From positions 46,385 through 110,384 of IMG/VR virus record IMGVR_UViG_3300035670_000067: 64,000 nucleotides of DNA; one strand, given 5' to 3'. The translations under genes and the position numbers were made by a program. Shown here in pieces: positions 23,900-38,657 of this stretch. How positions within the stretch are numbered: position 1 is the stretch's first letter; each line of letters opens with the position of its first letter. The stretch comes from a virus. The notes under the pieces were generated by a model. The model searched no databases, had not been told where the DNA came from, and saw only the letters and a list, made by a program, of their open reading frames with translations.

Positions 23900-23949
23900 A
23901 CAGACCTCCATCGGTTGTTTGGGTAAGGCGTTTTGCCTTACCTGCCACT

Positions 23950-23977
23950 ACTATAGGTGCGGCCAGTATTGGAACAA
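23950..23977 (-). promoter_or_regulatory. Promoter of the 45/73-aa unit
   Basis: TTGTTC, 16 bases, TATAGT, then a GTAAGGC-AAAAC-GCCTTAC 5' stem-loop. Confidence 0.75.
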
Positions 23978-25119: not shown

Positions 25120-25317
25120 TCAGGAATCTAACAAAGAACATCCACATGCTGAACAAATCATTTCCTCAATATGATCATCAGAAGCGAATATAGGGTGAAT
25201 CTCATTTCCTTCTGAATCAACATCTTCATCCTCACTGATCTCCCACTTTTGCATAGCGCAATCAACACAATAGATGTCAGCATCTCCGGAATAACCAAGA
25301 ATAGTCCATGCTTTCAT
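25120..25317 (-). CDS. Small zinc-ribbon protein
   Basis: 65 residues with two Cys pairs, YCVDCA and ICSACGC, separated by an acidic stretch (EDEDVDSEGNE). Probably binds one zinc ion. Such micro-proteins are common in early regions of large phages. Last gene of a five-gene unit; its start overlaps the preceding stop (TAATG). Confidence 0.65.
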   Translation of the reverse strand: MKAWTILGYSGDADIYCVDCAMQKWEISEDEDVDSEGNEIHPIFASDDHIEEMICSACGCSLLDS

Positions 25318-25478
25318 TAGACATCTTTCTGAATTTCTTGCGCGAGATCGTTGATTGTTACATTAGCTTGATTTGCTATAATGGCGAGCTCCTGCATCGC
25401 CGAAATGTACTTATCTAGCGGCAGTTCAAAGAAACGCACCCGTACAGCATAGAACAGACAAAGGAGTTCTTCAGACAT
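25317..25478 (-). CDS. Unknown 53-aa helical protein
   Basis: ATG at 25478 overlaps the beta-helix gene stop by eight bases (ATGTCTGA). It starts MSEELLCLFYAVRVRFFEL, all helical, followed by INDLAQEIQKDV. A longer open frame upstream lies in the repeat array and is a shadow. No family recognised. Confidence 0.5.
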   Translation of the reverse strand: MSEELLCLFYAVRVRFFELPLDKYISAMQELAIIANQANVTINDLAQEIQKDV

Positions 25479-26100
25479 AGGATTTCTCAGAACTGTTAAT
25501 CTGTTCTTCTCCACCGAAAATGCTTTGACCGCAAACCTGGCTTTCGCCGAAAACATGAACATTCCCAAAGATTCGAGCATATCCGTAGACATGAGCGTTA
25601 TCGTGGATGTGAGCATTTCCAGAAACATTCGCATTTTCAGAGATGCGAGCTTCCTCGTAGACCCAAGCATTACCGAAAATGCGAGCTTCGTTGAAAACCT
25701 GAGCGTAGCCCATGACGCAAGCCTTATCATTGATAAGAGTTGCATCATAGACACGCGCATAACCGAAGACACGAGCGTGACCGAAGACACGGACATAATC
25801 ATAAACGCGAGCGTGACCAAAGATTGCGGCTTGCTCAGAGATGCAAGCAGCATCTTGGACTATGGCATATTCATAGATGCGAGCGTTTCCGTAGATCTGA
25901 GCGTCGTTCATGACCCGAGCTTCTCCATAGACCTGAGCATTTTCGCGAACCCAGCAGTCGCCGTATTGACTAAGATTCCGTTCCGATTCGATCCACCCGC
26001 CGAGATCGCCAGCCTTGACGTCATCGAAATTATGCAACGCACGGATGCGGCGAAGCTTCGGAAAATCTGGGTGGGTTTCGTGAAGGATTTCGTACTTCAT
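25471..26100 (-). CDS. Repeat-rich beta-helix protein, family member 1
   Basis: 209 residues. A conserved N-terminal cap holds MKYEILHETHPDFPKLRRIR and DLGGWIESERNLSQYG. About 23 hexapeptide-like repeats of the form N/H-A-x-V-Y/F-G follow, the pattern of parallel or left-handed beta helices. These repeats are more diverged than in the other copies. The cap is near-identical to five other genes in the window. The function of these phage proteins is not established; a structural or adhesive rod is possible. Third gene in its unit. Confidence 0.7.
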   Translation of the reverse strand: MKYEILHETHPDFPKLRRIRALHNFDDVKAGDLGGWIESERNLSQYGDCWVRENAQVYGEARVMNDAQIYGNARIYEYAIVQDAACISEQAAIFGHARVYDYVRVFGHARVFGYARVYDATLINDKACVMGYAQVFNEARIFGNAWVYEEARISENANVSGNAHIHDNAHVYGYARIFGNVHVFGESQVCGQSIFGGEEQINSSEKSYV

Positions 26101-26273
26101 TTTTGATTACCTTTCTGCTGAAGCTCTTGCTGAAGTTCTCGTTTCATATCTCGAAGACGCTGCATACCGTCTTTGTCATCTTCATGAGAAGCGGCGCAAA
26201 CTCGGTTTTTGGCAATCAAGTAAAACCAAGAATCTCCGCCACCAATCATCTTTGTGATTTTGATGTCTTCCAT
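26097..26273 (-). CDS. Unknown 58-aa protein
   Basis: ATG at 26273 after GAGG; starts MEDIKITKMIGGGDSWFYL and ends in a charged helix rich in Gln/Glu. Its stop overlaps the beta-helix start (ATGA). No family recognised, but the spacing and ribosome site support it. Confidence 0.6.
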   Translation of the reverse strand: MEDIKITKMIGGGDSWFYLIAKNRVCAASHEDDKDGMQRLRDMKRELQQELQQKGNQK

Positions 26274-26281
26274 TGATTACC

Positions 26282-26557
26282 TCACTCGATGATGGTGGTA
26301 ACTTCGGGGATGCTTGCCGTGGTGTGAAGCAGATACCACTTGCCATTGTCAAACATGGCGTACACGGGAAGTTCTTCAACAAGGTTGAACTCGTAGAACA
26401 TGGCGCTCATGGTTGGCTTGATGTCGCTGGTTGCTGCGATGAGTTCTCGAATAGTGGCCGGATCATCCGCTGGCATACAATCCACAATGTCCGGGATAAG
26501 GTAGTGATACTGCTCGTGCTTCTGCAGCTTGTTCTTTGCCCATTTGATTACGTTCAT
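26282..26557 (-). CDS. Unknown 91-aa protein
   Basis: First gene of a five-gene unit. Amphipathic start (VIKWAKNKLQKHEQYHY), then a negatively charged middle and a beta-like end (LPVYAMFDNGKWYLLHT). No family recognised. Transcribed from a near-consensus promoter. Confidence 0.6.
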   Translation of the reverse strand: MNVIKWAKNKLQKHEQYHYLIPDIVDCMPADDPATIRELIAATSDIKPTMSAMFYEFNLVEELPVYAMFDNGKWYLLHTTASIPEVTTIIE

Positions 26558-26603
26558 TGTGAACTCCTTGTTTGTGTTGTGTAGCCTTTGTGCTACTGCC
26601 CTT

Positions 26604-26631
26604 ATTATAGCTGTTCTTGGCCTTCTTGCAA
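26604..26631 (-). promoter_or_regulatory. Promoter of the 91-aa/beta-helix unit
   Basis: TTGCAA, 16 bases, TATAAT. Confidence 0.8.
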
Positions 26632-26818
26632 ACTACCGGATAAAGTCTTTGTTGTCTTGTTTCTACGGAAGAATCAGCCAATTTGTGTATGACCAGAATG
26701 TTCTTGCAATTTACTGATCAGTCTGTAGATCTTTCAACTAAAATGCGTTACGTTTGCTTGCTCTATTGGAGCCAGAGTTTAGTGGCCAATATAATCTAGT
26801 TGCGAGGAATCATTTAGA

Positions 26819-27286
26819 TTAATCCTTTACACTAAGATTTCCGGAGACCTGAGCGTTGCCGCAGACCTGAGCGTTGCCGCAGACCCGAGCGTTTTCGTGG
26901 ACACGAGCGTTGTCGAAGACCCAAGCGTTTCCGTAGACCCAAGCGTTTTCGCAGACATGAGCGTTTCCAGAGACCAGAGCGTTGCCGAAGACCCAAGCGT
27001 TTTCGCAGACACGAGCGTTTTCGCAGACACGAGCGTTGCCGAAGACCCAAGCGTTTCCGTAGACCCAAGCGCTGCCGGAGACCTGAGCGTCGTCGAAGAC
27101 CTGAGCGTTTCCGTAGACCTGAGCGTCTCCGTAGACCCAGCAGTCTCCGTACCGGCTAAGATTCCGTTCCGATTCGATCCAGCCACCGAGGTCGCCGGCC
27201 TTGACGTTACCGAAATCCTGCAACGCACGGATACGGTGAAGCTTCGGGTTGTCCGGGTGGACTTCGGTAGTGATTTCGTACTTCAT
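26819..27286 (-). CDS. Repeat-rich beta-helix protein, family member 2
   Basis: 155 residues: the shared cap (MKYEITTEVHPDNPKLHRI; GDLGGWIESERNLSRYG), then about 18 regular units of the type NARV-C/F/Y-E/G coded by near-identical 18-bp DNA repeats. The regularity at DNA level indicates recent expansion by slippage or recombination. Single-gene cassette with a promoter and the GTCTAGAG paired elements upstream. Confidence 0.75.
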   Translation of the reverse strand: MKYEITTEVHPDNPKLHRIRALQDFGNVKAGDLGGWIESERNLSRYGDCWVYGDAQVYGNAQVFDDAQVSGSAWVYGNAWVFGNARVCENARVCENAWVFGNALVSGNAHVCENAWVYGNAWVFDNARVHENARVCGNAQVCGNAQVSGNLSVKD

Positions 27287-27322
27287 TTCAGTTTACCTTT
27301 CCGGCTTGGTTTGCCTAACCGT

Positions 27323-27350
27323 ATTATAGCCTGTCGGCATTATCCTACAA
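27323..27350 (-). promoter_or_regulatory. Promoter of beta-helix gene 2
   Basis: TTGTAG, 16 bases, TATAAT, with a GGTT-AGGCA-AACC 5' stem-loop. Confidence 0.75.
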
Positions 27351-27394
27351 GCTACTGGAAAATGTAATTTGTTTCTAATCTGTTGGATTGTTGC

Positions 27395-27472
27395 AGACCG
27401 TTCTAGACGCGTTTAGGCTGTTACTGGCGTACCAGTGTACCCGCCGCCCACTGAAGCTGTCTAGAGTGGTCT
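27395..27472. promoter_or_regulatory. Paired inverted GTCTAGAG elements, site A
   Basis: Left arm AGACCGTTCTAGAC (27395-27408) and right arm GTCTAGAGTGGTCT (27459-27472) face each other across exactly 50 bases. The same arrangement occurs at 29291 and 35744. Confidence 0.7.
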
Positions 27473-27523
27473 ATAGCGTGTCTATTGGCATATCATATAG
27501 GGCTAGGCTATTGGCGGCACAGC

Positions 27524-28048
27524 CTACTGTCTTATAATCGTATTATCGCAAATGGTTGAGTCATCCTTAATTCTAGCAGTTCCACAGACTATTGCATTTT
27601 CATGTATTCTAACGTATCCACCGATAATGACTTGTTCGTAGACGTGTGCGTTATCGAAGATCTTAGCATTACCAGAAATCCACGCATCACCGTGTACTAT
27701 GGTATATCCATAGATTTCAGCATATTCTTGAATTAAAGCGCGTTCATAGATTCTTGCGCATCCATGAACAAGTGCATTATCTTGAACTACAGCATTCCCC
27801 CTAACAGAAGCATTTTGGAAGACTCTTGCAAAACTGAGAATCTTTGCATGGTCACTAACCTGAGCTCTGTCGTAGACTTGGGCATTTTCATAAACCCAGC
27901 AACTTCCGATCTGGCTAAGATTATATTCAGACTCGATCCAACCGCCATAATCTCCAGCCTTGACGTGCCCAAAATCCTTCAACGCGATAATGCGTCTAAG
28001 TTTCGTGTTGAGGGGGCAGATTTCCGGAGTTATCTTGTATTTGTCCAT
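27524..28048 (-). CDS. Repeat-rich beta-helix protein, family member 3
   Basis: 174 residues from the ATG at 28048, two bases after the upstream stop. The cap has diverged (MDKYKITPEICPLNTKLRR; GDYGGWIESEYNLSQIG) and the repeats are irregular (YENAQVYDRAQVSDHAKIL). It is likely an older copy that has kept its frame. Last gene of a five-gene unit. Confidence 0.7.
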   Translation of the reverse strand: MDKYKITPEICPLNTKLRRIIALKDFGHVKAGDYGGWIESEYNLSQIGSCWVYENAQVYDRAQVSDHAKILSFARVFQNASVRGNAVVQDNALVHGCARIYERALIQEYAEIYGYTIVHGDAWISGNAKIFDNAHVYEQVIIGGYVRIHENAIVCGTARIKDDSTICDNTIIRQ

Positions 28049-28049
28049 G

Positions 28050-28322
28050 TCACACCAGTGGGTGATATTTACATGTTCTACGTTCTGCTTCAGACGGAGG
28101 TTCGGGTAGATCAACCGAATCTTCCACTGGCATCCAAAATGTCACATCATTAGAAAGAAATCCTTCATTGTTGTAGAATTGATCAAGAACAACTTTCCCA
28201 CGTTTTGTTGTGCAGAACTGTCCCCTGTAGACCATGCCAAATACTTCAAACCAATAGAATACATGCTGGTATTCTTTCGGTTGTTCTTGGTCTATTCTAC
28301 GCCATTTGTTAGACATGTTCAT
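28050..28322 (-). CDS. DUF551-like small protein
   Basis: 90 residues from 28322. It starts MNMSNKWRRIDQEQPKEYQ and ends VTFWMPVEDSVDLPEPPSE, close to the conserved ends of DUF551 (start W-x-x-I with a later P; end VTHWMPLPEPP). Function of the family is unknown; it is widespread in phages and prophages. A second, more diverged relative lies at 63573. Confidence 0.65.
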   Translation of the reverse strand: MNMSNKWRRIDQEQPKEYQHVFYWFEVFGMVYRGQFCTTKRGKVVLDQFYNNEGFLSNDVTFWMPVEDSVDLPEPPSEAERRTCKYHPLV

Positions 28323-28323
28323 G

Positions 28324-28536
28324 TCATCCCTTGAAGTTGATTTTGCGTAGGATTCTCGCAGCGGCGAGCGTATCAATTCTCAACAATGCTGGAACTGATG
28401 ACAATTCATCGAACTCTGCCAACACGCATCCGGTTTGTGATTGAAATTTACATACGAGTTCACACGCTTCAGCGTGTTCTTTCATCTCGTATTCTCGGTT
28501 ACAGAGTTCACAGACATACAGATTCCTTTCGCGCAT
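28324..28536 (-). CDS. Small zinc-finger protein
   Basis: 70 residues: YVCELCNREYEMKEHAEAC is a C2H/C-type single zinc finger, followed by a helical tail. Preceded by AGAGG. Likely nucleic-acid or protein binding; role unknown. Confidence 0.6.
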   Translation of the reverse strand: MRERNLYVCELCNREYEMKEHAEACELVCKFQSQTGCVLAEFDELSSVPALLRIDTLAAARILRKINFKG

Positions 28537-28548
28537 GATGATACCTCT

Positions 28549-28653
28549 TCAGCTTTGTGCGAGTTTATACAATACCAAGATGATGAAAAATATGATAAAG
28601 CAACCTACGCAACCTTCGCCGCCACCGTCATGGTGATAGATATCAAGACGCAT
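28549..28653 (-). CDS. 34-aa membrane micro-protein
   Basis: ATG at 28653 after AAAGGAA. It starts MRLDIYHHDGGGEGCVGC, then a single hydrophobic span (FIIFFIILVLYKL). Its stop is 13 bases before the next start. Very short, so moderate confidence. Confidence 0.5.
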   Translation of the reverse strand: MRLDIYHHDGGGEGCVGCFIIFFIILVLYKLAQS

Positions 28654-28696
28654 TGCTTATTCCTTTGTTACTTAAGGACCGACACTCAGATATCCA

Positions 28697-29179
28697 TTAG
28701 TCAGTGAAAATTCCTTCCAACAAATATTCCTTACTACAGACCCGAGCGTTTCCACAGACCCGAGCGTTACAGAAGACACAAGCGTTTTCGTAGACCCGAG
28801 CGTTTTCGTAGACCCGAGCGTCTCCGTAGACCCAAGCGTCTCCATAGACCCGAGCGTCTCCGTAGACCCGAGCGTCTCCGTAGACCCAAGCGTTTCCGTA
28901 GACCCAAGCGTTTCCCATGACCTGAGCGTTTTTGGAGACCTGAGCGTTTCCCATGACCTGAGCGTTTTTGGAGATCCGAGCCTCGTCGTAGACCTGAGCG
29001 TCTCCGTAGACCTGAGCGTCTCCGTAGACCCAGCAGTCTCCGTACTGGCTAAGATTCCGTTCCGATTTGATCCACCCGCCGAGGTCGCCAGCTTTGACGT
29101 CACCGAAATCCTTCAACGCACGGATACGGTGAAGCTTCGGATTGTCCGGGTGGGTTTCGGGAAGGATTTCGTACTTCAT
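28697..29179 (-). CDS. Repeat-rich beta-helix protein, family member 4
   Basis: 160 residues: cap (MKYEILPETHPDNPKLHRI; GDLGGWIKSERNLSQYG) and about 17 highly regular 18-bp-coded units (NARVYGDARVYG type). Near-identical DNA to member 2 over the cap. First gene of a five-gene unit. Confidence 0.75.
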   Translation of the reverse strand: MKYEILPETHPDNPKLHRIRALKDFGDVKAGDLGGWIKSERNLSQYGDCWVYGDAQVYGDAQVYDEARISKNAQVMGNAQVSKNAQVMGNAWVYGNAWVYGDARVYGDARVYGDAWVYGDARVYENARVYENACVFCNARVCGNARVCSKEYLLEGIFTD

Positions 29180-29217
29180 TTCGGTTTACCTTTCCGGCTT
29201 GGTTTGTTGCCAGTAGT

Positions 29218-29245
29218 GTTATACTGCTCAAACCATATCAAACAA
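29218..29245 (-). promoter_or_regulatory. Promoter of beta-helix gene 4 unit
   Basis: TTGTTT, 16 bases, TATAAC. Confidence 0.65.
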
Positions 29246-29290
29246 GTAGCTTGAAAACACAAATAAACTCTCTTCTATTAGAACTATTAC

Positions 29291-29368
29291 AGACCCTTCT
29301 AGACCGTTTGTTGTGCGCTACTAGTAGCCAAGTATGGCGGTACCGCTGACTTTTGTCTAGAGTGGTCC
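29291..29368. promoter_or_regulatory. Paired inverted GTCTAGAG elements, site B
   Basis: AGACCCTTCTAGAC (29291-29304) and GTCTAGAGTGGTCC (29355-29368), again exactly 50 bases apart. The right arm is followed by ATAATAGGTCTG, the left arm on the minus strand by GTAATAG. Confidence 0.7.
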
Positions 29369-29432
29369 ATAATAGGTCTGTTGGCTATTCTTAGGCTGGT
29401 TACACTAGGCAGCCCAGTAAACAGCCATGACA

Positions 29433-29726
29433 TCAGTCCATCTTGGAAATGTTCAACAACTTGTCAATTTCTTGACTGTTAGTGCGCATTTCGTCTCGTA
29501 TCTTATCCAGCAGGTTATCCTGGTGTTGGATTTCTTCGTTCAATTCAATTTTCTTATTGTTGATCGCTATGAATTTCTCATTCAAGTGAGTCTTCTCCTG
29601 AATGAGCTCGAGATAGGCACACAGGATATCTTGCGCACATTGAGGGCACAGCGTTCCAATATTCTGAATCTGAACATTCGGCATTGCGAATTCGGAAAGT
29701 TCGGCCTTACATTTAGCACAGTTCAT
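29433..29726 (-). CDS. Zinc-ribbon plus coiled-coil protein
   Basis: 97 residues. The N terminus has NCAKCKAEL and TLCPQCAQD (two Cys pairs, one zinc), followed by a long charged coiled coil (LIQEKTHLNEKFIAINNKK and on). AGGAGACAATC precedes the ATG. Could dimerise through the coil; role unknown. Confidence 0.65.
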   Translation of the reverse strand: MNCAKCKAELSEFAMPNVQIQNIGTLCPQCAQDILCAYLELIQEKTHLNEKFIAINNKKIELNEEIQHQDNLLDKIRDEMRTNSQEIDKLLNISKMD

Positions 29727-29768
29727 GATTGTCTCCTTAGTAGCTTGTGGACTGTTTTCGTTAGACTT

Positions 29769-30080
29769 TTACAATTTCCCGGAAATAAAAGCATCTCCAG
29801 AGATTCGGGAAGAACCAGAAACCAAAGCGGAACCACAGACCCGAGCGTTTCCACAGACCCGAGCGTTACAGAAGACACAAGCGTTTTCGTAGACCCAAGC
29901 GTCTCCGTAGACCCGAGCGTTTCCGGAAACCCAGCAGTTACCGTCCTGGCTAAGATTTCATTCCGATTCGATCCACCCACCAAACTCACCAGCTTCAACA
30001 TTGCCAAAACTCTTGAGCGCACGGATACGGCGAAGCTTCGGATTGTCCGGGTAAGTTTTGGCAGTGATTTCGTACTTCAT
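29769..30080 (-). pseudogene. Beta-helix family member 5 with an in-frame TGA
   Basis: The cap starts MKYEITAKTYPDNPKLRRI and reads to GGWIESE (codon 40). Codon 41 is TGA (29958-29960), where the other members have CGG or a sense codon. Downstream the frame is intact for 62 more codons of NARVYG-type repeats to a TAA. No frameshift is present, so it is either a pseudogene with one nonsense codon, a gene making a 40-aa cap, or a read-through gene. It keeps its own promoter. Confidence 0.75.
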
Positions 30081-30129
30081 TCTGGTTGCCTTTCTGTGAA
30101 AATATAGACTTTACCGTTTGCCTAACCAT

Positions 30130-30157
30130 ATTGTAACACTTTCCAGCTATCTTACAA
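30130..30157 (-). promoter_or_regulatory. Promoter of beta-helix copy 5
   Basis: TTGTAA, 16 bases, TACAAT. Confidence 0.65.
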
Positions 30158-30200
30158 ACAGTTGGATAAAGTGTTTATTGTCAGCGTTTAGATTATCTTG

Positions 30201-30273
30201 AGCCAATGGTCGGATTTGAACCGACGACCGGTTGATTACAAATCAACTGCTCTACCGACTGAGCTACACTGGC
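30201..30273 (-). tRNA. tRNA-Thr (UGU)
   Basis: Full cloverleaf on the minus strand: acceptor GCCAGTG/CATTGGC, D arm GTAGCTCAGTCGG, anticodon loop TTTGTAA, T arm GTTCGAATC. Reads ACA. The CCA end is not encoded. Confidence 0.9.
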
Positions 30274-30292
30274 TTTTCACAACTGCGAACGA

Positions 30293-30378
30293 TGGTGTCT
30301 GGAGAGGGACTCGAACCCTCACTTCCTTACGGAAAGCAGATTTTAAGTCTGCTGCGTATGCCATTTCGCCACCCAGAC
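30293..30378 (-). tRNA. tRNA-Leu (UAA)
   Basis: Class II tRNA with a long variable arm (TTTCCGTAAGGAAG), acceptor GTCTGGG/TCCAGAC, anticodon TAA, encoded CCA. Its 5' end directly abuts the CCA of the tmRNA, so the two need cutting from one transcript. Confidence 0.92.
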
Positions 30379-30719
30379 TGGTGGACCTGTCGGGAGTTGA
30401 ACCCGAGTCCTATATAGCTTCTACAATGAAGTTGTTACATGCTTGTTCAATCGTTTATGGTACGATTAACAGAACCATGACTGTCTTTCCAGTCCGTCAT
30501 TCGTATCTCTTCCGACTGTCACCCGGAACCACCGGGATCGTCAGGCTGATTTACTGCTCAGCGAGCGAAGCAGGCTCCGTTAGGCCGCGAGGGCCACGGG
30601 AGCGGGGAAGGACAGAACGGGTTTGGCAGTTCTGTTTTGACCGGAGTTTTGCGAGGCCAACGGTCATCCTCGGCATGAATTCATTATCTCCACTATACAG
30701 TCGAAACCTTTTCAGGCCC
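30379..30719 (-). ncRNA. ssrA: Transfer-messenger RNA (tmRNA)
   Basis: A 341-base RNA with the tRNA-like ends of tmRNA: 5' GGGCCTG pairs with 3' CAGGTCC before an encoded ACCA, and the T arm is GGGTTCAACTCCC. The 5' half has GGTTTCGAC and CATGCCGAGG...TTGGCCTCG, matching pseudoknot 1 of E. coli tmRNA. Aligning to E. coli places the resume codon at GCC (30625-30627). The tag frame then reads AKPVLSFPAPVALAA and TAA (30580-30582). tmRNA frees stalled ribosomes and marks the product for proteases; the ALAA end is the usual protease signal. Confidence 0.92.
30580..30627 (-). CDS. tmRNA tag-peptide reading frame
   Basis: 15 codons, AKPVLSFPAPVALAA, ending LAA-stop as in nearly all tmRNA tags. It is proline-rich and longer than most bacterial tags (usually 8-12). 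The resume site is inferred by alignment to the E. coli layout. Confidence 0.75.
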   Translation of the reverse strand, partial: AKPVLSFPAPVALAA

Positions 30720-30728
30720 ATTGATTGA

Positions 30729-30911
30729 TCACTTACTGATTGTAATCGCTCTCGCGATACAATACGGAATAACGGCCATACCGACCGCTTGCGCTGAAGC
30801 GCCGGCTTGCTGAACAGCGTTGGCTTCACCAGAAATGCTCAGCAAACTGAGCAATCCAATCACCGCAAACACACCGGCGATAGTCCAAACGATTCGGCCA
30901 AACGTCTTCAT
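30729..30911 (-). CDS. 60-aa membrane protein
   Basis: Starts MKTFGRIVWTIAGVFAVIG, a hydrophobic span, then SISGEANAVQQAGASAQAV and a second moderately hydrophobic stretch (GMAVIPYCIARAI). AAAGGAG precedes the ATG. Possibly a holin-like or envelope micro-protein. It is co-transcribed with the downstream tmRNA. Confidence 0.65.
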   Translation of the reverse strand: MKTFGRIVWTIAGVFAVIGLLSLLSISGEANAVQQAGASAQAVGMAVIPYCIARAITISK

Positions 30912-30941
30912 ACTGACTCTCCTTTGTTTGTGGAATAGAAC

Positions 30942-31397
30942 TTAGTTGTTACCGGGACAGAGTGCTTTGTCGTGAGCGGCAGGACAGAAGACCTTGTTAT
31001 TCTTTCTGTCAAAATGAAGGCGACCGCCGCAATGTTCGCAGACAAACCCATTGGCATATCGCTTCGCATAGGAAGGAGCAACACGCGCAATCCTGTCCGC
31101 ACACTGCATCGGCGTCAATCGAATAATGTGACGATTGACGTAAGTGGTTCCGGGAACCTTAACGCGCCGATACGTATTGAGCTGATCGCCAAGCGACCAT
31201 CGCCTATTAACCTTGGACAGATACCGCCGAACCACACCATGCGGATAAATCACGTAGAACTCGGGCCTGCCCGGGAGCTTGACCGCGACACTGCCGAACT
31301 TCTTGTGACCCTTTCCAGTCACATCCTGGAACCCTTGATTCACCAGGAAGCTCTTGGCCGTTTCCATCTCTTCTGCCGTGTACTGGGGGATTTCCAT
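30942..31397 (-). CDS. Unknown protein with C-terminal zinc ribbon
   Basis: 151 residues. Starts MEIPQYTAEEMETAKSFL, with a middle of basic beta segments, and ends FVCEHCGGRLHFDRKNNK then VFCPAAHDKALCPG, a CxxC plus Cys/His/Cys zinc ribbon. May bind nucleic acid. The MEIPQ opening is shared with the 90-aa protein at 22914. First gene of the unit carrying tmRNA, Leu and Thr tRNAs. Confidence 0.65.
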   Translation of the reverse strand: MEIPQYTAEEMETAKSFLVNQGFQDVTGKGHKKFGSVAVKLPGRPEFYVIYPHGVVRRYLSKVNRRWSLGDQLNTYRRVKVPGTTYVNRHIIRLTPMQCADRIARVAPSYAKRYANGFVCEHCGGRLHFDRKNNKVFCPAAHDKALCPGNN

Positions 31398-31435
31398 AGG
31401 ACACCTTTGGTTATGGTTTTGTGTGGCACAGTACC

Positions 31436-31463
31436 ATTATACCACTTCAAAGTTATCTTACAA
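31436..31463 (-). promoter_or_regulatory. Promoter of the tmRNA unit
   Basis: TTGTAA, 16 bases, TATAAT. The 5' leader holds a GTGCCAC-type stem. Confidence 0.75.
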
Positions 31464-31492
31464 ATGGGCTGATTTTATTTGTTTGTGTCTAG

Positions 31493-31566
31493 TAGGCCCG
31501 ACTGGACTTGAACCAGTGACCCGCGGCTTATAAGACCGCTGCTCTAACCAACTGAGCTACGAGCCT
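31493..31566 (-). tRNA. tRNA-Ile (UAU)
   Basis: Acceptor AGGCTCG/CGGGCCT, anticodon stem GCGGT with loop CTTATAA, anticodon TAT, T arm GTTCAAGTC. Reads AUA directly; most bacteria use a lysidine-modified CAU anticodon instead. CCA not encoded. Confidence 0.88.
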
Positions 31567-31573
31567 AGAGAAA

Positions 31574-31759
31574 TCAAGCCTTATCGAAAATGGTGTCCTG
31601 GCATTTCTGACAAATGCCAGAAATCTTATATTCGCGCTTAGACCGTTCGTCACGGAAAGACTTTTCAGTAACATCACAGCCACAGAAAACACACTTATCC
31701 ACAGCGATAAACTTGTTAGCGAAGATCCGAATCGGATTTGTTACTTCGGTCGTTTTCAC
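31574..31759 (-). CDS. 61-aa zinc-ribbon protein (GTG start)
   Basis: GTG at 31759 with AAAGGAG upstream; no suitable ATG, and the reading frame upstream runs into tRNA-Glu. KCVFCGCDV and ICQKCQDTI form a four-Cys zinc site. It sits between tRNA-Glu and tRNA-Ile. Role unknown. Confidence 0.6.
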   Translation of the reverse strand: MKTTEVTNPIRIFANKFIAVDKCVFCGCDVTEKSFRDERSKREYKISGICQKCQDTIFDKA

Positions 31760-31781
31760 ACTAGCTCCTTTCGTTGAGTTT

Positions 31782-31858
31782 TGGTATCCCCAACGGGGTT
31801 CGAACCCGTAGCCTTCAGGATGAAAACCTGATGTGGTAGCCACTTCCACCATGGGGAC
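31782..31858 (-). tRNA. tRNA-Glu (UUC)
   Basis: Acceptor GTCCCCA/TGGGGAT, anticodon loop TTTTCAT, T arm GTTCGAACC, encoded CCA. Confidence 0.9.
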
Positions 31859-31861
31859 ATT

Positions 31862-31938
31862 TGGTGCTCCGGCCGGGATTTGAACCCGGGACTCCGACAT
31901 TAAAAGTGTCGTACTCTAGCCAACTGAGTTACCGGAGC
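31862..31938 (-). tRNA. tRNA-Lys (UUU)
   Basis: Acceptor GCTCCGG/CCGGAGC, anticodon loop CTTTTAA, T arm GTTCAAATC, encoded CCA. Three bases from tRNA-Glu. Confidence 0.92.
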
Positions 31939-31945
31939 TCCTTTC

Positions 31946-32248
31946 TTAGGTGTGGACTTGCCAAGTAACCATGTGAGGCATTTCCTTAGCCATCTCATGA
32001 TTATGGCAAATCACGCCACCGTTGAATAGAAAATGGTCTTTCCCGCGAATTGCGTTGAAGGTGAACGAATATGGTGCAAAGTCCTTGAACAAAACGATGT
32101 CAATGTTGCGACGTTCGAGCCAAGAGTTCCCGTACATGTCAAGGTACTGCAGAGTACCAAGGAACTTCTTGTAGATTTGGTCGTTCTTTTTGGCCCAATC
32201 CATGATGGATTCGAAGTATTCCTTGAGGTCTTCGCAGACGATTAGCAT
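31946..32248 (-). CDS. DUF4120-like protein
   Basis: 100 residues with IVLFKDFAPYSFTFNAIRG and GGVICHNH...VTWQVHT. This is the same order as the conserved DFAPYSF, GG-x-x-x-H and W-x-I/V-H-T ends of DUF4120, a family found in phages and gut bacteria with unknown function. Its start overlaps the upstream zinc-ribbon gene by seven bases. Confidence 0.6.
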   Translation of the reverse strand: MLIVCEDLKEYFESIMDWAKKNDQIYKKFLGTLQYLDMYGNSWLERRNIDIVLFKDFAPYSFTFNAIRGKDHFLFNGGVICHNHEMAKEMPHMVTWQVHT

Positions 32249-32397
32249 GACTTCACCCCAGCCTTTTCGAGCTCGCGGTGCATCTTAGAAAGAGCAAACT
32301 TGTATCCCTTGATGATACACCAGATGCACTTGCCCTTGGCGACTTCGATTTCCCGCCTTTCGAGCTTGACCCCGCACTTTTGGCACGTTGCTTCCAT
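32242..32397 (-). CDS. 51-aa zinc-ribbon protein
   Basis: ATG at 32397 after AAGGAG. ATCQKCGVKL and GKCIWCIIKG provide a four-Cys site, followed by a charged helix. First gene after its promoter. Role unknown. Confidence 0.65.
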   Translation of the reverse strand: MEATCQKCGVKLERREIEVAKGKCIWCIIKGYKFALSKMHRELEKAGVKSC

Positions 32398-32446
32398 AGA
32401 ATGAACTCCTTTTTGTTTGTTGCCATGGTTTACTGGCAACGGTACT

Positions 32447-32474
32447 ATTATACCACATCTGGCGGCGGAAGCAA
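32447..32474 (-). promoter_or_regulatory. Promoter of the 51/100-aa and tRNA unit
   Basis: TTGCTT, 16 bases, TATAAT, then a GTTGCC/GGCAAC 5' stem-loop. Confidence 0.75.
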
Positions 32475-32497
32475 GCAGCAAGAAAAACTTTAGTTTT

Positions 32498-32767
32498 TCA
32501 TTCTTCTTTGAGTCTTGAAAAACTCAACTGATCTTCATCAATGTGACATTTGTATGTATTCGTTTCATTTTGTGGACCGCCGACTTTGATGATGAAATTG
32601 CACTGGTCAATCAAGTTCCAAGTGATCACATATAATCCAAGATTATGCTCTCGAATGAATTTATCCAGTGTTGTCATAATCTCAGAACAGACTTGTGGTG
32701 CGTCTTTGTCGGTTGAAATTGCTTCTTTTTGCAGGCTAATGAGCCGAGCCAATCTGCTGATATTCAT
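32498..32767 (-). CDS. Unknown 89-aa protein
   Basis: The start at 32767 (MNISRLARLISLQKEAI) is preferred; the extension upstream lies inside the lysozyme gene. Helical first half, then GLYVITWNLIDQCNFIIKV. No family recognised. It ends the unit that starts at 33758. Confidence 0.55.
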   Translation of the reverse strand: MNISRLARLISLQKEAISTDKDAPQVCSEIMTTLDKFIREHNLGLYVITWNLIDQCNFIIKVGGPQNETNTYKCHIDEDQLSFSRLKEE

Positions 32768-33155
32768 GTCGCACTTTCTCCCAGTATGGCTTTGTCGACC
32801 TCTTCTTATATCCATCTGGTCCACCATTCCACATCCTAGCGAACACTTCATTAGTGGGAGCTGAACCAGTTCTGCGCTGATATACGCGACCGTAATGAAG
32901 CAAGTATGTATGACAGACCATTTTAGCTTTCACTGGATCAAACATGTCTTGGTGTGAAAAATTCAATCCAGTAATTCTATTGAAGTCTGTTACCACCTCA
33001 ATATGAATCTGCAATAAGCCGATAGCCTTGCCGTTATCGCCTATCGCTTGGCTGTTGTTCCGAGATTCCACTCGACTCATCGCTCTCACCAATCTTGCCG
33101 ATGGCTTTGTTACGATTTCTCCAGATACTAATACAAGCGGCGACAGCGCGATCAC
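32736..33155 (-). CDS. Lysozyme/transglycosylase-like cell-wall enzyme
   Basis: The region from RAMSRVESRNNSQAIGDN through AIGLLQIHIEVV to MWNGGPDGY has the order of the lysozyme-like (SLT) fold. It shows catalytic Glu in RVES, G-x-Q in IGLLQI and a late WNGG-P-x-G. The family cleaves peptidoglycan during lysis or entry. The start is unclear. GTG at 33155 has AAGGTG upstream and gives a short hydrophobic N terminus (VIALSPLVLVSG), but overlaps the previous gene by 122 bases. ATG at 33080 is an alternative, and the frame stays open to 33266. Confidence 0.7.
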   Translation of the reverse strand: MIALSPLVLVSGEIVTKPSARLVRAMSRVESRNNSQAIGDNGKAIGLLQIHIEVVTDFNRITGLNFSHQDMFDPVKAKMVCHTYLLHYGRVYQRRTGSAPTNEVFARMWNGGPDGYKKRSTKPYWEKVRHEYQQIGSAH

Positions 33156-33237
33156 GCTTATCACCTTCAGCAATGCGGGTTGAAACACAAGCCCGCATGA
33201 AATCTTCCATGTTGTCATAGTCGTTTGGATTAGGCAT
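33034..33237 (-). CDS. Unknown 67-aa protein with C...C-S-W-R motif
   Basis: Starts MPNPNDYDNMEDFMRACVS and continues RDRAVAACISIWRNR. The spacing of F-M-x-x-C and R-A-V-A-A-C-x-S-x-W resembles a short motif found in many phage proteins (R-A-A-V-C-x-S-x-W), function unknown. Its 3' half overlaps the lysozyme gene in another frame. Confidence 0.55.
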   Translation of the reverse strand: MPNPNDYDNMEDFMRACVSTRIAEGDKRDRAVAACISIWRNRNKAIGKIGESDESSGISEQQPSDRR

Positions 33238-33244
33238 ATTTTTC

Positions 33245-33469
33245 TCAAGTATCGCAAGGGCCGCATTCGTGAGGGAACTTGCCGCCCAGCAAGTGGATCT
33301 TATGCCAGATTTGCATTCCAAGCTTCCAAGCAATGATGGCATCTTCCATTGACATACCTTCTGAATTGATGTCGTCATCAAGCCTATCGTGAAATTCTTC
33401 CCAAGCTTGATCGCCATTGATTTGTGGTTCTCGGCCAGTAACTCCCGGTGGGAAATTGTTCCCGCTCAT
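33245..33469 (-). CDS. Unknown 74-aa acidic protein
   Basis: Starts MSGNNFPPGVTGREPQING, acidic middle (FHDRLDDDINSEGMSMED), ends with HECGPCDT. No family recognised. Two bases separate it from the upstream stop. Confidence 0.55.
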   Translation of the reverse strand: MSGNNFPPGVTGREPQINGDQAWEEFHDRLDDDINSEGMSMEDAIIAWKLGMQIWHKIHLLGGKFPHECGPCDT

Positions 33470-33471
33470 GG

Positions 33472-33594
33472 CTAGCTCTTTCGCATGGAACCCGGCTTGT
33501 GATACATGTTAGGATAACGAGCATTTCGCTGCATCTTCTCCTCGAAATCCCTCTGCCGATTCTCAAGCCGCTTCTGACGCATCTTGTACTTCAC
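33472..33594 (-). CDS. 40-aa basic protein (GTG start)
   Basis: GTG at 33594 overlaps the previous stop (GTGA) with GAGGGG upstream. The product VKYKMRQKRLENRQRDF is very basic and helical. A start at the internal ATG (33582) is also possible. Possibly nucleic-acid binding. Confidence 0.5.
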   Translation of the reverse strand: MKYKMRQKRLENRQRDFEEKMQRNARYPNMYHKPGSMRKS

Positions 33595-33758
33595 TTAGAA
33601 TTTCCCCTCTTGTTACGACCGCGTCGCGCCACTCCGCTCGGCGTAGCACACGTACACGGATTGAAACGAACGCATCCACAATTCTCGCAATTGTATTTGC
33701 GAACGGTGCCATCAGCAGACCTGCGGATGAGAGACTTGAGACCCTTCGAGTTTTCCAT
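33591..33758 (-). CDS. 55-aa cysteine-rich basic protein
   Basis: ATG at 33758 after AAGGAAAG. YNCENCGCVRFNPCTC carries five Cys in a compact zinc-type cluster, with a basic tail (VARRGRNKRG). First gene of a six-gene unit ending with the lysozyme region. Confidence 0.6.
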   Translation of the reverse strand: MENSKGLKSLIRRSADGTVRKYNCENCGCVRFNPCTCATPSGVARRGRNKRGNSK

Positions 33759-33799
33759 TTTCTTTCCTTGTGCTGAGGTTATGGTTTGGTAACACGCCT

Positions 33800-33827
33800 A
33801 TTATAGCCTGTCTTGCTTTTCACGCAA
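33800..33827 (-). promoter_or_regulatory. Promoter of the lysozyme unit
   Basis: TTGCGT, 16 bases, TATAAT, then a GTTACC-AAACC-ATAAC 5' stem. The word GCGGTCTATA lies just upstream, like one arm of the paired elements. Confidence 0.75.
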
Positions 33828-33874
33828 GCGGTCTATACACTTTTGGAATTCTTTGTTTGTTGCTGTAGTTAATA

Positions 33875-34204
33875 TCAACCCTGTACACAAGCTTTTTCTT
33901 CAACTCGTACCTCCGCATATTCTTTGTTTAGGATAGCCTTTCCCATCCTCCAGCGTCCCTTATCACCCATGCTAGGCCAAGAGATCACGAACAAATATTC
34001 GCTAGGTATGACCTGCATAATCGGCATCTTAGTGAGCGGTTCTTCTTCAACACGCGCTACGAAGGTGGTGGTCCTTGGATAATGCAAATCCCTAAAGGAT
34101 GTCTCCGCAGATTTGACTACATATAGACTTCGCATTTCGCTTCCATTATGATAAACGAAGTGCATCAATCCTTCTTTGACAACCAGATTTCCGTGATATT
34201 GCAT
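33875..34204 (-). CDS. Unknown 109-aa protein
   Basis: Beta-rich, with VKEGLMHFVYHNGSEMRSL and PSEYLFVISWPSMGDKGRW. No family recognised. Three bases after the upstream gene. Confidence 0.6.
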   Translation of the reverse strand: MQYHGNLVVKEGLMHFVYHNGSEMRSLYVVKSAETSFRDLHYPRTTTFVARVEEEPLTKMPIMQVIPSEYLFVISWPSMGDKGRWRMGKAILNKEYAEVRVEEKACVQG

Positions 34205-34207
34205 TGG

Positions 34208-34549
34208 TCACTCCCAAGGGAACGGGCGCTTGATGTTCATAGTTTCTAGCGTACTATCCCATTTATCTGGAACATTTGCTTCCAGAAAATATGCATATTG
34301 AGATTCCTTTTCACTTTCCGGATTGTATCTTACCGCAACTTCACAATAACTTCCGAAATCGTGCGGATATGTAACAATCTTGAGATAAGCGTCACCGGGT
34401 GGTTCGCCAAAAAGTTTCAGCAGAAAAAGCTTGAATCGCCTGCATTCTTCTCGCATTTCTTCGATATACGGCACATCGCTTATTACTTGCACACACGGTT
34501 CGTCATGCGGACTGCAACCGATTTCCAATGTTTCAAGCATACTCAACAT
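34208..34549 (-). CDS. Unknown 113-aa protein
   Basis: ATG at 34549 after AAAGGAAG. Helix (EEMREECRRFKLFLLKLFG) and beta stretches (LKIVTYPHDFGSYCEVAVR). No family recognised. It overlaps the upstream gene by 17 bases. Confidence 0.6.
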   Translation of the reverse strand: MLSMLETLEIGCSPHDEPCVQVISDVPYIEEMREECRRFKLFLLKLFGEPPGDAYLKIVTYPHDFGSYCEVAVRYNPESEKESQYAYFLEANVPDKWDSTLETMNIKRPFPWE

Positions 34550-35186
34550 CACAGTCTTCCTTTGTTGGAGGATTACGGAATATTCTACCTAGGAAATATG
34601 GCTCACTCTCGCGTTTATAAGAAGTACAGACGATCTCCCACTGCTTTATAGAAAATGGCGATTCGTATTTTCTGTTGTCAGGCTCGAACAGCCATCTATT
34701 CAGTTGTTCTGCTAAGCTCTTCCTGAGATTACTACGGAAGGTCTTTACTTTCAGCAACTGAATGCATTTGAAAAGTTGCCAGTTATCAACTTTCAATTCT
34801 CGTAATGGCTGAACATATTTTTCGCCTAGTTCGTTCTGCACGTATTCAGTGAATGCTTTGTGTCCGTGCATCCACTTAGACAATTGTTGTCCGCGCAAAT
34901 AAGCTTGATAGAACTTTTTGATGGTTTCCGATGCGTCTACGCTCGCGTGATTCATGTAAGTCCACGCTCGCGTAGTGGCGTATTCTATATCGAAGAATCC
35001 GCAATTCTCTTGGTCCCACACAACGGCGAAGAAATCACTATCATCGTAACCGTTGTGCTCATAAGTTCTGACAACACAACCTTCATATGCTGTTCGTTTA
35101 TACATGATCCGTTCTTGTGCTGTGCCCTTGTCAACTACGACAGGTTCAGCACCAGGACTTTCAGAACAATTGTAGACTGTTACCAT
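34533..35186 (-). CDS. Unknown 217-aa protein
   Basis: Starts MVTVYNCSESPGAEPVVVD. The middle (DDSDFFAVVWDQENCGFFD; EYATTRAWTYMNHASVDA) and the helical C-terminal half look like a folded enzyme or binding protein, but no family is recognised. First gene of a three-gene unit. Confidence 0.6.
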   Translation of the reverse strand: MVTVYNCSESPGAEPVVVDKGTAQERIMYKRTAYEGCVVRTYEHNGYDDSDFFAVVWDQENCGFFDIEYATTRAWTYMNHASVDASETIKKFYQAYLRGQQLSKWMHGHKAFTEYVQNELGEKYVQPLRELKVDNWQLFKCIQLLKVKTFRSNLRKSLAEQLNRWLFEPDNRKYESPFSIKQWEIVCTSYKRESEPYFLGRIFRNPPTKEDCDVEYA

Positions 35187-35212
35187 AGGATGCCCCTTTT
35201 GTTGGCAACGTT

Positions 35213-35240
35213 ATTATAGCTCTTCGCTGCTATCCTGCAA
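35213..35240 (-). promoter_or_regulatory. Promoter of the 217/113/109-aa unit
   Basis: TTGCAG, 16 bases, TATAAT, then a GTTGCCAAC inverted repeat. Confidence 0.75.
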
Positions 35241-35253
35241 ACGCCAAGACAAA

Positions 35254-35400
35254 TTAGTTACAGGCTAGTATCGTTATCACAAACGTGATAGAGATAAAGC
35301 CAAACATCAATGCTACTACTCCATATATAGCGATTCTTTCATCATATTGAACAATTTGTCGATCAAGTTCCTTAATATCTGATTCTGAGTATATTTTCAT
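35254..35400 (-). CDS. 48-aa membrane micro-protein
   Basis: ATG at 35400 inside the end of the upstream gene. The product has an acidic/polar start (MKIYSESDIKELDRQIV) and a C-terminal hydrophobic span (VVALMFGFISITFVITILA). No strong ribosome site, so translation would be coupled. Moderate confidence. Confidence 0.45.
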   Translation of the reverse strand: MKIYSESDIKELDRQIVQYDERIAIYGVVALMFGFISITFVITILACN

Positions 35401-35680
35401 GCATGATATAGTTTTGACCATTCACGCAGAAAACAGGCTCATCAGTATTCCACTCTCTCACTACTACTGGTACATGACAGAATTCCCAAATGAAATGTTT
35501 GATGAGTCTTCGTGTTACTTGATTGATATGTTCCGGATTACGTCTTATCGTAATCTGTTTCTTATCAACTTCAAGCACAAGGAACTTGTAGAAGTACACC
35601 TTAGTCTGTTCGCCATAAACGACTGAAATATGCCGTTTATGCCGTACAGAATTAATCCTAATCTGTTCAGGAGAAAGCAT
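35372..35680 (-). CDS. Unknown 102-aa basic protein
   Basis: Beta-type segments (HISVVYGEQTKVYFYKFLV) and basic patches (KKQITIRRNPEHINQVTRR). No family recognised. Promoter region upstream carries the paired elements of site C. Confidence 0.6.
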   Translation of the reverse strand: MLSPEQIRINSVRHKRHISVVYGEQTKVYFYKFLVLEVDKKQITIRRNPEHINQVTRRLIKHFIWEFCHVPVVVREWNTDEPVFCVNGQNYIMHENILRIRY

Positions 35681-35743
35681 ATTGTCACCAACACCTTTTG
35701 GCCATGGCGCACCATAGCCAGATTATGGCGTAAGACCCATTAT

Positions 35744-35820
35744 AGACCGGCTCAGACAGGCTTTAGCTTGCGCAGGCTAACACTACCCATACCACAAGCA
35801 AAATGCGTCTAGAGCGGTCT
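35744..35820. promoter_or_regulatory. Paired inverted GTCTAGAG elements, site C
   Basis: Left arm AGACCGGCTCAGAC (35744-35757) and right arm GTCTAGAGCGGTCT (35807-35820) with 49 bases between. On the minus strand the left arm runs into GGTCTATAATGGG, a possible -10 for the 102-aa gene. Confidence 0.65.
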
Positions 35821-35836
35821 ATAAACGTTTCAACAG

Positions 35837-36058
35837 TTAGGACTTTTCACCTTTCTTAACCAGAATAGGCTTCGTACATTTGAAAACAGGCGCAAGAAGC
35901 TTTGCCGCTCTCTTGAAGTCCGCTACTGTTGGTGAATATGCGTGGTCCGTTAATTTCCTGTCTGGTGGCAGATAAGCCAACAGCGGGTTCATTTCTATCC
36001 AATGGCCGAAGTCAGCAAATGGCTGCAACGCCTCCATGACTTCTTTAGGATAATTCAT
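35837..36058 (-). CDS. Unknown 73-aa protein
   Basis: Starts MNYPKEVMEALQPFADFGH and ends with a basic tail (KPILVKKGEKS). ATGA overlap with the upstream stop. No family recognised. Confidence 0.55.
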   Translation of the reverse strand: MNYPKEVMEALQPFADFGHWIEMNPLLAYLPPDRKLTDHAYSPTVADFKRAAKLLAPVFKCTKPILVKKGEKS

Positions 36059-36738
36059 GGCGACACCGGGCTTCTGTCTTCACTGGCTTCGGGAGCGGGT
36101 GCCGAAAGATCAACGTCAAAGACGTATCCCTTTTGAGCCTTGTACTGATTAAGCACTTCTGACATGGCTTGATACACGTTAGAATTCGCATATGCAAGTA
36201 AGTCCAGTTTCCATTTTACAGTTTCCATAAGCCACTGATGAAAGTCAACCAGTGCGAAGATTTCACCATTGACATCAACGCGCCCATCCGTGATGGTGTA
36301 AGTGTTGTTATCAACGAGGACATTGCCAGTTTCAGAATTCAGCAGACAAACCAAATCTACATATGTTTGGAATATGTAGAGCTCTTTGGCAGGGAACGAA
36401 TAGCCGCGCAATTCTGAAGCCGAGACACCGGATGCACCAGAGAAATCGCAACGAAGCTTGTACGTCTCGGAAACGAGATTTTTTACATCGTTTCCAAACA
36501 ACGTAACGATCTGCTCACGTATTGATTTCTTCCATGGCGCATACACTGGAATGTAACTGAGAATGCCAGCTTCCAATTCCAACTTACTTGGAATCGCGTC
36601 TAGCGTGACAGCACCAGTCATCATCCCAGAACGTGCAAACAGATTAACACGATTGTCAGTTTTCACTGTTTTCAGGAATTCAAACAATCGCATCATCCTG
36701 TGTAGGTAGTGATAGCTTGTATGTCGTCTTGTTTTCAC
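36055..36738 (-). CDS. Unknown 227-aa protein
   Basis: Mixed alpha/beta protein with TITDGRVDVNGEIFALVDF in the middle and LLAYANSNVYQAMSEVLNQ near the C terminus, ending in a disordered SAPAPEASEDRSPVSP tail. No family recognised. Coupled both sides by four-base ATGA overlaps. Confidence 0.6.
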   Translation of the reverse strand: MKTRRHTSYHYLHRMMRLFEFLKTVKTDNRVNLFARSGMMTGAVTLDAIPSKLELEAGILSYIPVYAPWKKSIREQIVTLFGNDVKNLVSETYKLRCDFSGASGVSASELRGYSFPAKELYIFQTYVDLVCLLNSETGNVLVDNNTYTITDGRVDVNGEIFALVDFHQWLMETVKWKLDLLAYANSNVYQAMSEVLNQYKAQKGYVFDVDLSAPAPEASEDRSPVSP

Positions 36739-37022
36739 TTCTTAGCTTCCTTGTGCATGACACGCACCTTCTTGGCGAAGAATAGAACAGTATCTGTTCC
36801 AACATAGACTTCTAGTAACTTCAATGCTTCCATGACGTTACCAGAATTTATGCTATCGCACATCTGTTCGTACGTGTCTTCTTGGATTGGAGGATAAGCA
36901 TCGCATAACACCCTGAGTTCAGTTTTAATCCAGAACCCAAGTGTATGCTCTTTGAACGGCAACTTCACTGCTACCGAAGTAAGCTCAGCAATATGCCGTC
37001 TTCGCATGAATTGAGTAAGCAT
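36735..37022 (-). CDS. Unknown 95-aa helical protein
   Basis: Starts MLTQFMRRRHIAELTSVAV and is helical throughout (EQMCDSINSGNVMEALKLL). No family recognised. Sits after the terminator of the acidic-tail gene, so it should have its own promoter, which I cannot see clearly. Confidence 0.55.
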   Translation of the reverse strand: MLTQFMRRRHIAELTSVAVKLPFKEHTLGFWIKTELRVLCDAYPPIQEDTYEQMCDSINSGNVMEALKLLEVYVGTDTVLFFAKKVRVMHKEAKK

Positions 37023-37040
37023 GTTGTATAAAATGATAAT

Positions 37041-37066
37041 GCGGGGCGGTCCTTAGACCGCCCCGC
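37041..37066 (-). terminator. Terminator of the acidic-tail gene
   Basis: GCGGGGCGGTC/GACCGCCCCGC stem with a four-base loop, 14 bases after the stop at 37081. Confidence 0.75.
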
Positions 37067-37080
37067 ATTTCTTATTCTGC

Positions 37081-37938
<858 letters not shown>

Positions 37939-37992
37939 AGTGAGTTACCCTTTTATTGAACGTTATGTGAGGCGCTTGCCTTACATGGTGCT

Positions 37993-38020
37993 ATTATACC
38001 ACCGTCTTGTTTTCTTGCAA
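37993..38020 (-). promoter_or_regulatory. Promoter of the acidic-tail gene
   Basis: TTGCAA, 16 bases, TATAAT with TGG before the -10 (extended -10). An AGGC-AAGC-GCCT stem follows. Confidence 0.8.
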
Positions 38021-38057
38021 CCGGCCGGACAATGTTTTTGTTATCAATGCCTCCTTA

Positions 38058-38657
38058 TTATCCGATCAACCAACCCTGAGATTCAGTTGTTCCATACTCA
38101 CTGATATGGTGAGCGTGTTCAGTCACGAATCTATCAAAGGCGGGTTTCGGACTATCATATGGGGTTCTGCCGAATATATTCAGATTCAGTCCATAATCAT
38201 CAACTATCATAACTCCGCCTTCCTTCAGAATTTGGAATCCAATAGTCATATCAACATAGGCGTCCATACAATTGTGATTCCCATCAACGTATATCACATC
38301 GAATTCATCATTGTGCCCATAAGCATGAAGCAAATATGTCAACGAATCACAAACCAAGAGTTGGAATTTGTTGCCTAACGGTTCAAGATTTGCTTTCGCA
38401 GTCTCTTTGATGATGTCACGTTTAGCCATCAAATCCGAGCTTCCGAAAATATACGGGTCAACACCAATCCCACGAGCACTATCTGCTGTGAAAATATTGT
38501 TCATCATCCAAATAGCAGAACGACCCTCGAAAACGCCGATTTCTAGATATCGAACTTTCTCTTTACCGACAAATTGCTTGAGCAATTTGCTCCACAATTT
38601 TGTCTTTTTATGAACCCAATTGCGTGAAAAATGCGGTTCATGCTTTGGAGTTTCCAT
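38058..38657 (-). CDS. Class I SAM-dependent methyltransferase
   Basis: 199 residues with motif I YLEIGVFEGRSAIWM (SAM-binding loop), an acidic strand-2 end in IGVDPYIF, FDVIYVDGNHN (motif IV) and GGVMIVDDYG (motif V region). Similar to the Methyltransf_24 group, which often methylates sugars. AAAGG precedes the ATG. It could act on sugars added by the glycosyltransferases (inference). Confidence 0.82.
   Translation of the reverse strand: METPKHEPHFSRNWVHKKTKLWSKLLKQFVGKEKVRYLEIGVFEGRSAIWMMNNIFTADSARGIGVDPYIFGSSDLMAKRDIIKETAKANLEPLGNKFQLLVCDSLTYLLHAYGHNDEFDVIYVDGNHNCMDAYVDMTIGFQILKEGGVMIVDDYGLNLNIFGRTPYDSPKPAFDRFVTEHAHHISEYGTTESQGWLIG

Follow-up and report, generated by a model that had tools for sequence, protein, structure and literature searches.

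Three paired sites in an early-type region

The stretch analysed here, the window to which all coordinates refer, comprises 64,000 nucleotides (bases 46385-110384) of the 110,384-base IMG/VR record IMGVR_UViG_3300035670_000067, a tailed phage by gene content, in which portal, terminase, and capsid and protease families were identified and whose terminase shares about 23-28% identity with its counterparts in Streptomyces, Gordonia and Rhodococcus phages. The minus strand carries nearly all genes, and the segment from about 13 to 44 kb contains small genes together with seven tRNAs and one transfer-messenger RNA (tmRNA). Clustered within this early-type region are three paired sites, designated A, B and C (Table 1), all located in gaps between same-strand (minus) genes, and in each of them GTCTAGANNGGTCTRTA occurs twice, once per strand, the two copies being separated by 50 bases at A and B and by 49 at C.

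These inverted pairs had been pointed out in a first-pass annotation, and element positions, shuffles and matrices confirm them. Allowing up to three mismatches, the motif GTCTAGAGNGGTCTATA is matched six times in the window against 0.30 expected, a count reached in 0 of 100 shuffles; five of the matches are paired elements and the sixth is a site at 23371, while the drifted left arm of site C (GTCTGAGCC...) exceeds three mismatches to GTCTAGAGNGGTCTATA and was recovered with a looser pattern. Over the whole record, a matrix built from the six paired elements scores those six at 22.1-27.9 and the next best position at 15.7. As A and B are related, the matrix for an independent test was trained with the elements of A and B and not with those of C: in the whole record the right arm of C ranks fifth (24.1), right behind the four training elements, and pair C reaches 36.5 at spacing 49, compared with 17.8 for the best other pair in the record (spacings 45-55) and 23.7 for the best pair among 60 first-order Markov genomes (spacings 20-90). 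A lone inverted repeat of comparable quality and distance is not rare; the rarity lies in like arms at like spacing three times over, and the pairs are far beyond chance.

The entire record holds no further copy of GTCTANNNNGGTCTA at one mismatch or fewer, and the genome-wide motif scan that the first-pass annotation had proposed as a check returned no copies beyond the three pairs. The related single elements it had listed fared less well: a 26-base matrix gives 16.3 for the one at 23374 and 16.0 for that at 13585, values within the range of simulated genomes (19-base matrix maximum 19.4) and not shown to exceed chance, and the element near 33825, which partly coincides with a -35 box, is weaker than either.

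Table 1. Positions of the paired sites, their arms and spacers, and the associated genes, leaders and promoter-like boxes (window coordinates)
Feature	Position	Strand	Remarks
Site A, whole	27383-27484		17-base elements 27392-27408(-) / 27459-27475(+)
Site A left arm	27383-27408	-	GTCTA half-sites at offsets 0, 10 and (weak) 21
Site A spacer	27409-27458		50 bases; 11/50 vs B
Site A right arm	27459-27484	+	GTCTA at offsets 0, 10, 21
Site B, whole	29279-29380		17-base elements 29288-29304(-) / 29355-29371(+)
Site B left arm	29279-29304	-	
Site B spacer	29305-29354		50 bases
Site B right arm	29355-29380	+	
Site C, whole	35732-35832		17-base elements 35741-35757(-) / 35807-35823(+)
Site C left arm	35732-35757	-	diverged at bases 5-8
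Site C spacer	35758-35806		49 bases
Site C right arm	35807-35832	+	
gA promoter-like boxes	27323-27350	-	TTGTAG, 16 bases, TATAAT
gA leader	27287-27311	-	24/25 identical to gB leader
gA	26819-27286	-	155-amino-acid YdcK-type beta-solenoid repeat protein, downstream of site A
gB promoter-like boxes	29218-29245	-	TTGTTT, 16 bases, TATAAC; below promoter-scan threshold, weaker eleventh class member
gB leader	29180-29204	-	
gB	28697-29179	-	160-amino-acid gA paralogue, 67% identical
gC	35372-35680	-	102-amino-acid protein, family unknown, downstream of site C

Half-sites, promoters and downstream genes

The element, initially presented as a 14-17-bp unit, is better described as tandem GTCTA half-sites. 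Each arm has the structure GTCTA, five bases, GTCTA, and over the six arms the letters of GTCTA are matched at 29/30 for offset 0 and 27/30 for offset 10, giving two clear repeats in 6/6 arms. A third GTCTA at offset 21 agrees at 21/30 letters (mean 3.5/5, where the 99% point of shuffled maxima is 2.83, and 0/5000 at the fixed offset); its signal is partly owed to the related sites A and B, and it is supported overall, not by C alone. Measured centre to centre and assuming 10.5 bp per turn, matching half-sites of opposing arms are separated by 5.1-5.2, 7.1 and 9.1-9.2 turns, near-integral values that place the half-sites of both arms near one face of the DNA. The two arms of one site are alike at 14, 15 and 14 of 19 positions and arms of different sites at 12-15/19, with the right arms agreeing best (16, 16 and 16 of 19 between sites). 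Because the right arms are the most alike and within-site likeness is no higher, we read the arms as DNA-protein sites of unequal strength.

The comparison of A with B is particularly informative. The first 150 coding bases of gA and gB are identical at 136/150 positions, and A and B are paralogous cassettes. Their arms are identical at 15/17 and 16/17 positions and their spacers are equal in length, whereas the spacer sequence is at chance level (11/50) and the promoter region agrees at 14/31 in an ungapped comparison not aligned box to box. That the arms and their distance were held while the remainder drifted constitutes the strongest argument for function. Site C has arms and spacing in common with A and B, without a common gene, leader or promoter; gC itself has no relative in the phage records or viral contigs searched, and its predicted structure reached moderate confidence (mean pLDDT 78) in one model out of five, with no known fold matched at an E-value of 0.001 or below. 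The gA and gB genes belong to a paralogous family of YdcK-type beta-solenoid proteins with 18-base repeats on the minus strand (25471-26100, 26819-27286, 27524-28114, 28697-29179, 29958-30080 and 39529-40239), one copy being a short remnant.

The first-pass statement that the pairs lie upstream of sigma70-type boxes holds at A and B but not at C, where no such promoter was seen between the pair and gC. A search seeded with six similar boxes yielded ten minus-strand and no plus-strand members of a sigma70-like class between 23.2 and 41.7 kb, and within that class a paired site accompanies only the A and B promoters. The near edge of the pair falls at -67 (A) and -68 (B) from the inferred start, equal within one base, and the promoter stands outside the motif, 32-33 bases beyond the array. 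The class as a whole (23240-41620, minus strand) reads GTTTGYARGATA...GCTATAATA, several members carrying ATAAANNNTTTAT just upstream of the -35 box.

Further afield in the window, the phage-encoded tmRNA (30379-30719, minus strand, Rfam 123.9 bits, tag AKPVLSFPAPVALAA) adjoins the tRNA genes. A protein with a long C-terminal run of Glu-Asp repeats is encoded at 37081-37938 (minus strand), and 44300-45242 (plus strand) holds two overlapping open reading frames (ORFs) without a family match, plus-strand genes being rare in this otherwise minus-strand genome. In addition, a thymidylate-synthase-like protein and a deoxynucleoside monophosphate kinase are encoded at 55946-58837 (minus strand), and a 5-hmdU DNA kinase domain (E 9.4e-62) occurs in one of 32 scanned proteins, probably that at 57800-58837 (minus strand). 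On the basis of these three predicted functions, the phage may carry hypermodified thymine.

Searches for a binding protein, relatives and known counterparts

No regulator was found over the cut-off in Pfam/PHROGs scans of 67 and 32 window proteins (among the matches listed), in ten candidates taken singly, or in six families compared with the whole record, whose left 46 kb was covered by these six family searches alone. The small winged-helix protein and integrase that would accompany operator arrays of the Apl/Cox/Xis type were not recognised either: up to E 1, nothing in the record matched HTH_17, MerR_1 or Phage_integrase, a range that divergent proteins may escape. A host protein is a possible binder.

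Relatives of the locus proved equally elusive. A megablast comparison of 26500-36800 with 50,697 phage records revealed no close relative, and neither TerL nor DNA ligase as a query led to a close viral contig. The TerL alignment reached 598 contigs, of which 80 were kept and two of those 80 exceeded 50% identity; a refined alignment reached 15 contigs at 28-67% identity, no relative turned up in genome contigs, and a motif scan of 13 of the 15 (L118 and L120, at 28%, left out) produced a single unpaired one-mismatch match. Since these contigs mostly cover the structural region and their flanks lack common early genes, the absence of the motif there is no evidence of absence. A first pair pattern had no match in viral contigs, and a looser one, which matches A, B and C, gave a hit in one viral contig, within a long ORF, read as chance; no relative with the paired site was found in IMG/VR.

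In genome contigs the pair pattern matched 29 stretches, 27 in a Chloroflexota metagenome-assembled genome (MAG), one in Crossiella and one in Rhizobium, corresponding to three independent events where arithmetic gives a chance expectation of about 11 in 257 Gb. The MAG, JAADII01 (L128-L150, L152-L154, L156), contains a dispersed palindromic repeat of GTCTANNTTGGTC units with a 20-base period and 58.5% G+C; 29 copies occur in the stretches fetched, 7/29 of them inside stop-free frames of at least 150 codons. Because members of a palindromic repeat family satisfy the two arms simultaneously, and given the number of events expected by chance, this MAG is not taken as the host, and its repeat, a single homogeneous one with a different unit and no phage link seen, was judged coincidental. 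Crossiella sp. S99.2 carries two GTCTAGANNGGTC elements 49 bases apart (L151:4235-4309), the sole two GTCTAGANNGGTC matches in that genome, directly followed by a gene which, from its sequence, we take to encode a GntR-type regulator; this pair was likewise left as coincidence.

Searches of the open-licence PMC literature brought up no paper recognisably on this motif. The nearest mechanism is that of RcoLS20 on the Bacillus plasmid pLS20, whose operators OI and OII each group copies of a short motif, the two groups lying on opposing strands (all but one OII copy) with a 75-bp spacer; binding is cooperative, there is evidence for looping, and a 5-bp insertion destroys control (PMC4207663). Both systems place two clusters of a motif on opposing strands with a short, fixed distance between them. 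However, RcoLS20 has a different motif (CAGTGAAA), one operator overlapping divergent promoters, one locus and a known regulator, whereas the phage sites show 49-50 bp, three loci, arrays upstream of the promoter and no known regulator.

The nearest look-alike is provided by the ESAS elements of cluster K mycobacteriophages, paired imperfect 17-bp inverted repeats in intergenic positions before a subset of non-structural genes, which have been suggested as operators of an unknown regulator; their spacer is mostly 4-13 bp (12-14 bp in a later paper), a promoter lies inside the motif, and a 13-bp start-associated sequence (SAS) is linked to them (PMC3203893, PMC11373665, PMC12699233). The present sites likewise comprise paired imperfect inverted repeats of about 17 bp in intergenic positions before non-structural genes, but ESAS elements have a shorter spacer (vs 50, 50 and 49 here), a sigma-A-like promoter inside rather than outside the motif, and more copies. 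The SAS GGGATAGGAGCCC has no match in the window at up to two mismatches, and membership of the cluster K ESAS family was rejected for the wrong spacer, the lack of an SAS and the promoter outside the motif.

Short repeats about 10-11 bp apart recall Apl of phage 186, a DNA-bending protein with short direct-repeat operators at that interval (seven at pR-pL, five at attP; PMC7498355); Apl differs in its single direct-repeat arrangement and in being an excisionase with an integrase partner, neither of which was found in this phage record. Direct repeats about one helical turn apart are also bound by head-to-tail multimers of Streptomyces BldC (PMC5859096), although those are 9-bp AT-rich repeats, the available part of that report describes no opposed pair, and a BldC-like protein was not found in this phage.

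Candidate double operators and alternative readings

We consider it fairly probable that each site consists of two opposed arrays of operators at which an oligomeric regulator would control the gene downstream by way of a short loop or wrap. This reading builds on the arrays, their spacing and uniqueness, the retention between A and B of the arms and the spacer length though not of the spacer sequence, and the location of the sites in intergenic gaps preceding three genes; it also retains, as the best interpretation, the first-pass suggestion of operators for a looping repressor, taken here as a regulator that may repress or activate, for which no binding protein was identified. Two GTCTA arrays on opposite strands, repeating about every helical turn and 49-50 bp apart, would form a double operator with half-sites facing nearly one side. 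A sequence-specific DNA-binding protein that oligomerises head-to-tail would probably fill both arrays, and the two oligomers might meet across the spacer, which would be bent or wrapped. For A and B, such a complex would occupy about -67 to -169 from the inferred start and regulate the host-type sigma70-like promoter of a small accessory gene, and at C it would act on gC through another geometry.

Several observations weigh against this interpretation. No HTH_17, MerR_1, HTH_3 or RHH_1 match over the cut-off exists in the whole record, and no A/B-class promoter was seen between pair C and gC. In C alone the third half-site is not distinct, being tied with two other offsets among 43. Furthermore, A and B are partly duplicates, so that the independent sample is about two, and the lack of any relative found to carry the site means that other genomes supply no footprint. 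Finally, 50 bp is short for a loop without bending.

A first alternative places the function in RNA, the arms pairing in the transcript as a processing site, terminator or structured leader. Each of the three sites does form a long stem, whichever strand is folded (z -2.4 to -5.8), and read-through from upstream genes is conceivable, but such folding is expected of any inverted repeat, the minus strand has no T-tract after the sites, and the A and B elements, placed before the promoter, fall outside the following gene's mRNA. Compensatory positions number 1/19 for A-B and 0 for A-C and B-C, the arms changing singly, and this lack of co-variation argues for DNA binding over an RNA hairpin, which we regard as unlikely. 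It is similarly improbable that the sites serve not a transcription regulator but a recombinase, a transposase, a partition protein or a packaging protein. Tandem arm-type repeats on opposite strands are also present at attachment sites and centromeres, yet the absence of a Phage_integrase match, the chance-level A/B spacer and the clustering of three separate copies, each preceding a gene, in an early-type region speak against the packaging or recombination sites envisaged in the first-pass annotation. The divergent promoters for a phage sigma factor that it also envisaged seem extremely unlikely: TATAAT-like bases end some arms, and the ORF at 63074-63589 is weakly sigma-like, but its Sigma70_r2 match (E 0.077) is below the cut-off, Sigma70_r4 has no match in the record, and the structure model, with a mean pLDDT of 42 and no solved relative, is unusable. 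Moreover, not every arm retains the TATAAT-like end, no convincing gene lies ahead of the plus-strand arms, and the only three sites in 110 kb, where promoters of a sigma factor would be expected before many genes of one temporal class, include no copies near structural genes.

That the sites are functionless leftovers of duplication is very unlikely; A and B do have gene and leader in common, but their flanks are at chance level while arms and spacer length are kept, and C has the arms without the A/B gene, leader or promoter. A sub-case of the operator reading, in which the phage exploits a host regulator (e.g. a direct-repeat binder) for its early promoters, is possible if rather doubtful. 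The host-like promoters and the lack of a recognised regulator in the phage record favour it, but the sole match-rich genome, the Chloroflexota MAG, has a homogeneous dispersed repeat with a different unit and no phage link seen.

Within the operator reading, a more far-reaching and distinctly improbable version can be formulated, whereby an unrecognised regulator family would nucleate two opposed head-to-tail filaments on the phase-locked GTCTA arrays, closing a DNA ring of about 100 bp upstream of accessory genes and possibly reading hypermodified thymines in the half-sites, thereby telling phage from host DNA. If true, such a module would represent a new kind of phage control module. More generally, three near-identical double operators, in which spacing and not spacer sequence is kept, provide a compact target for regulation in a phage lineage for which the collections searched contain no closely related cultured phage. 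Should their binding partner be phage-encoded, it would count among regulators missed by the present profile libraries, and the constant 50-bp gap leaves the looping idea open to direct test by half-turn insertions.

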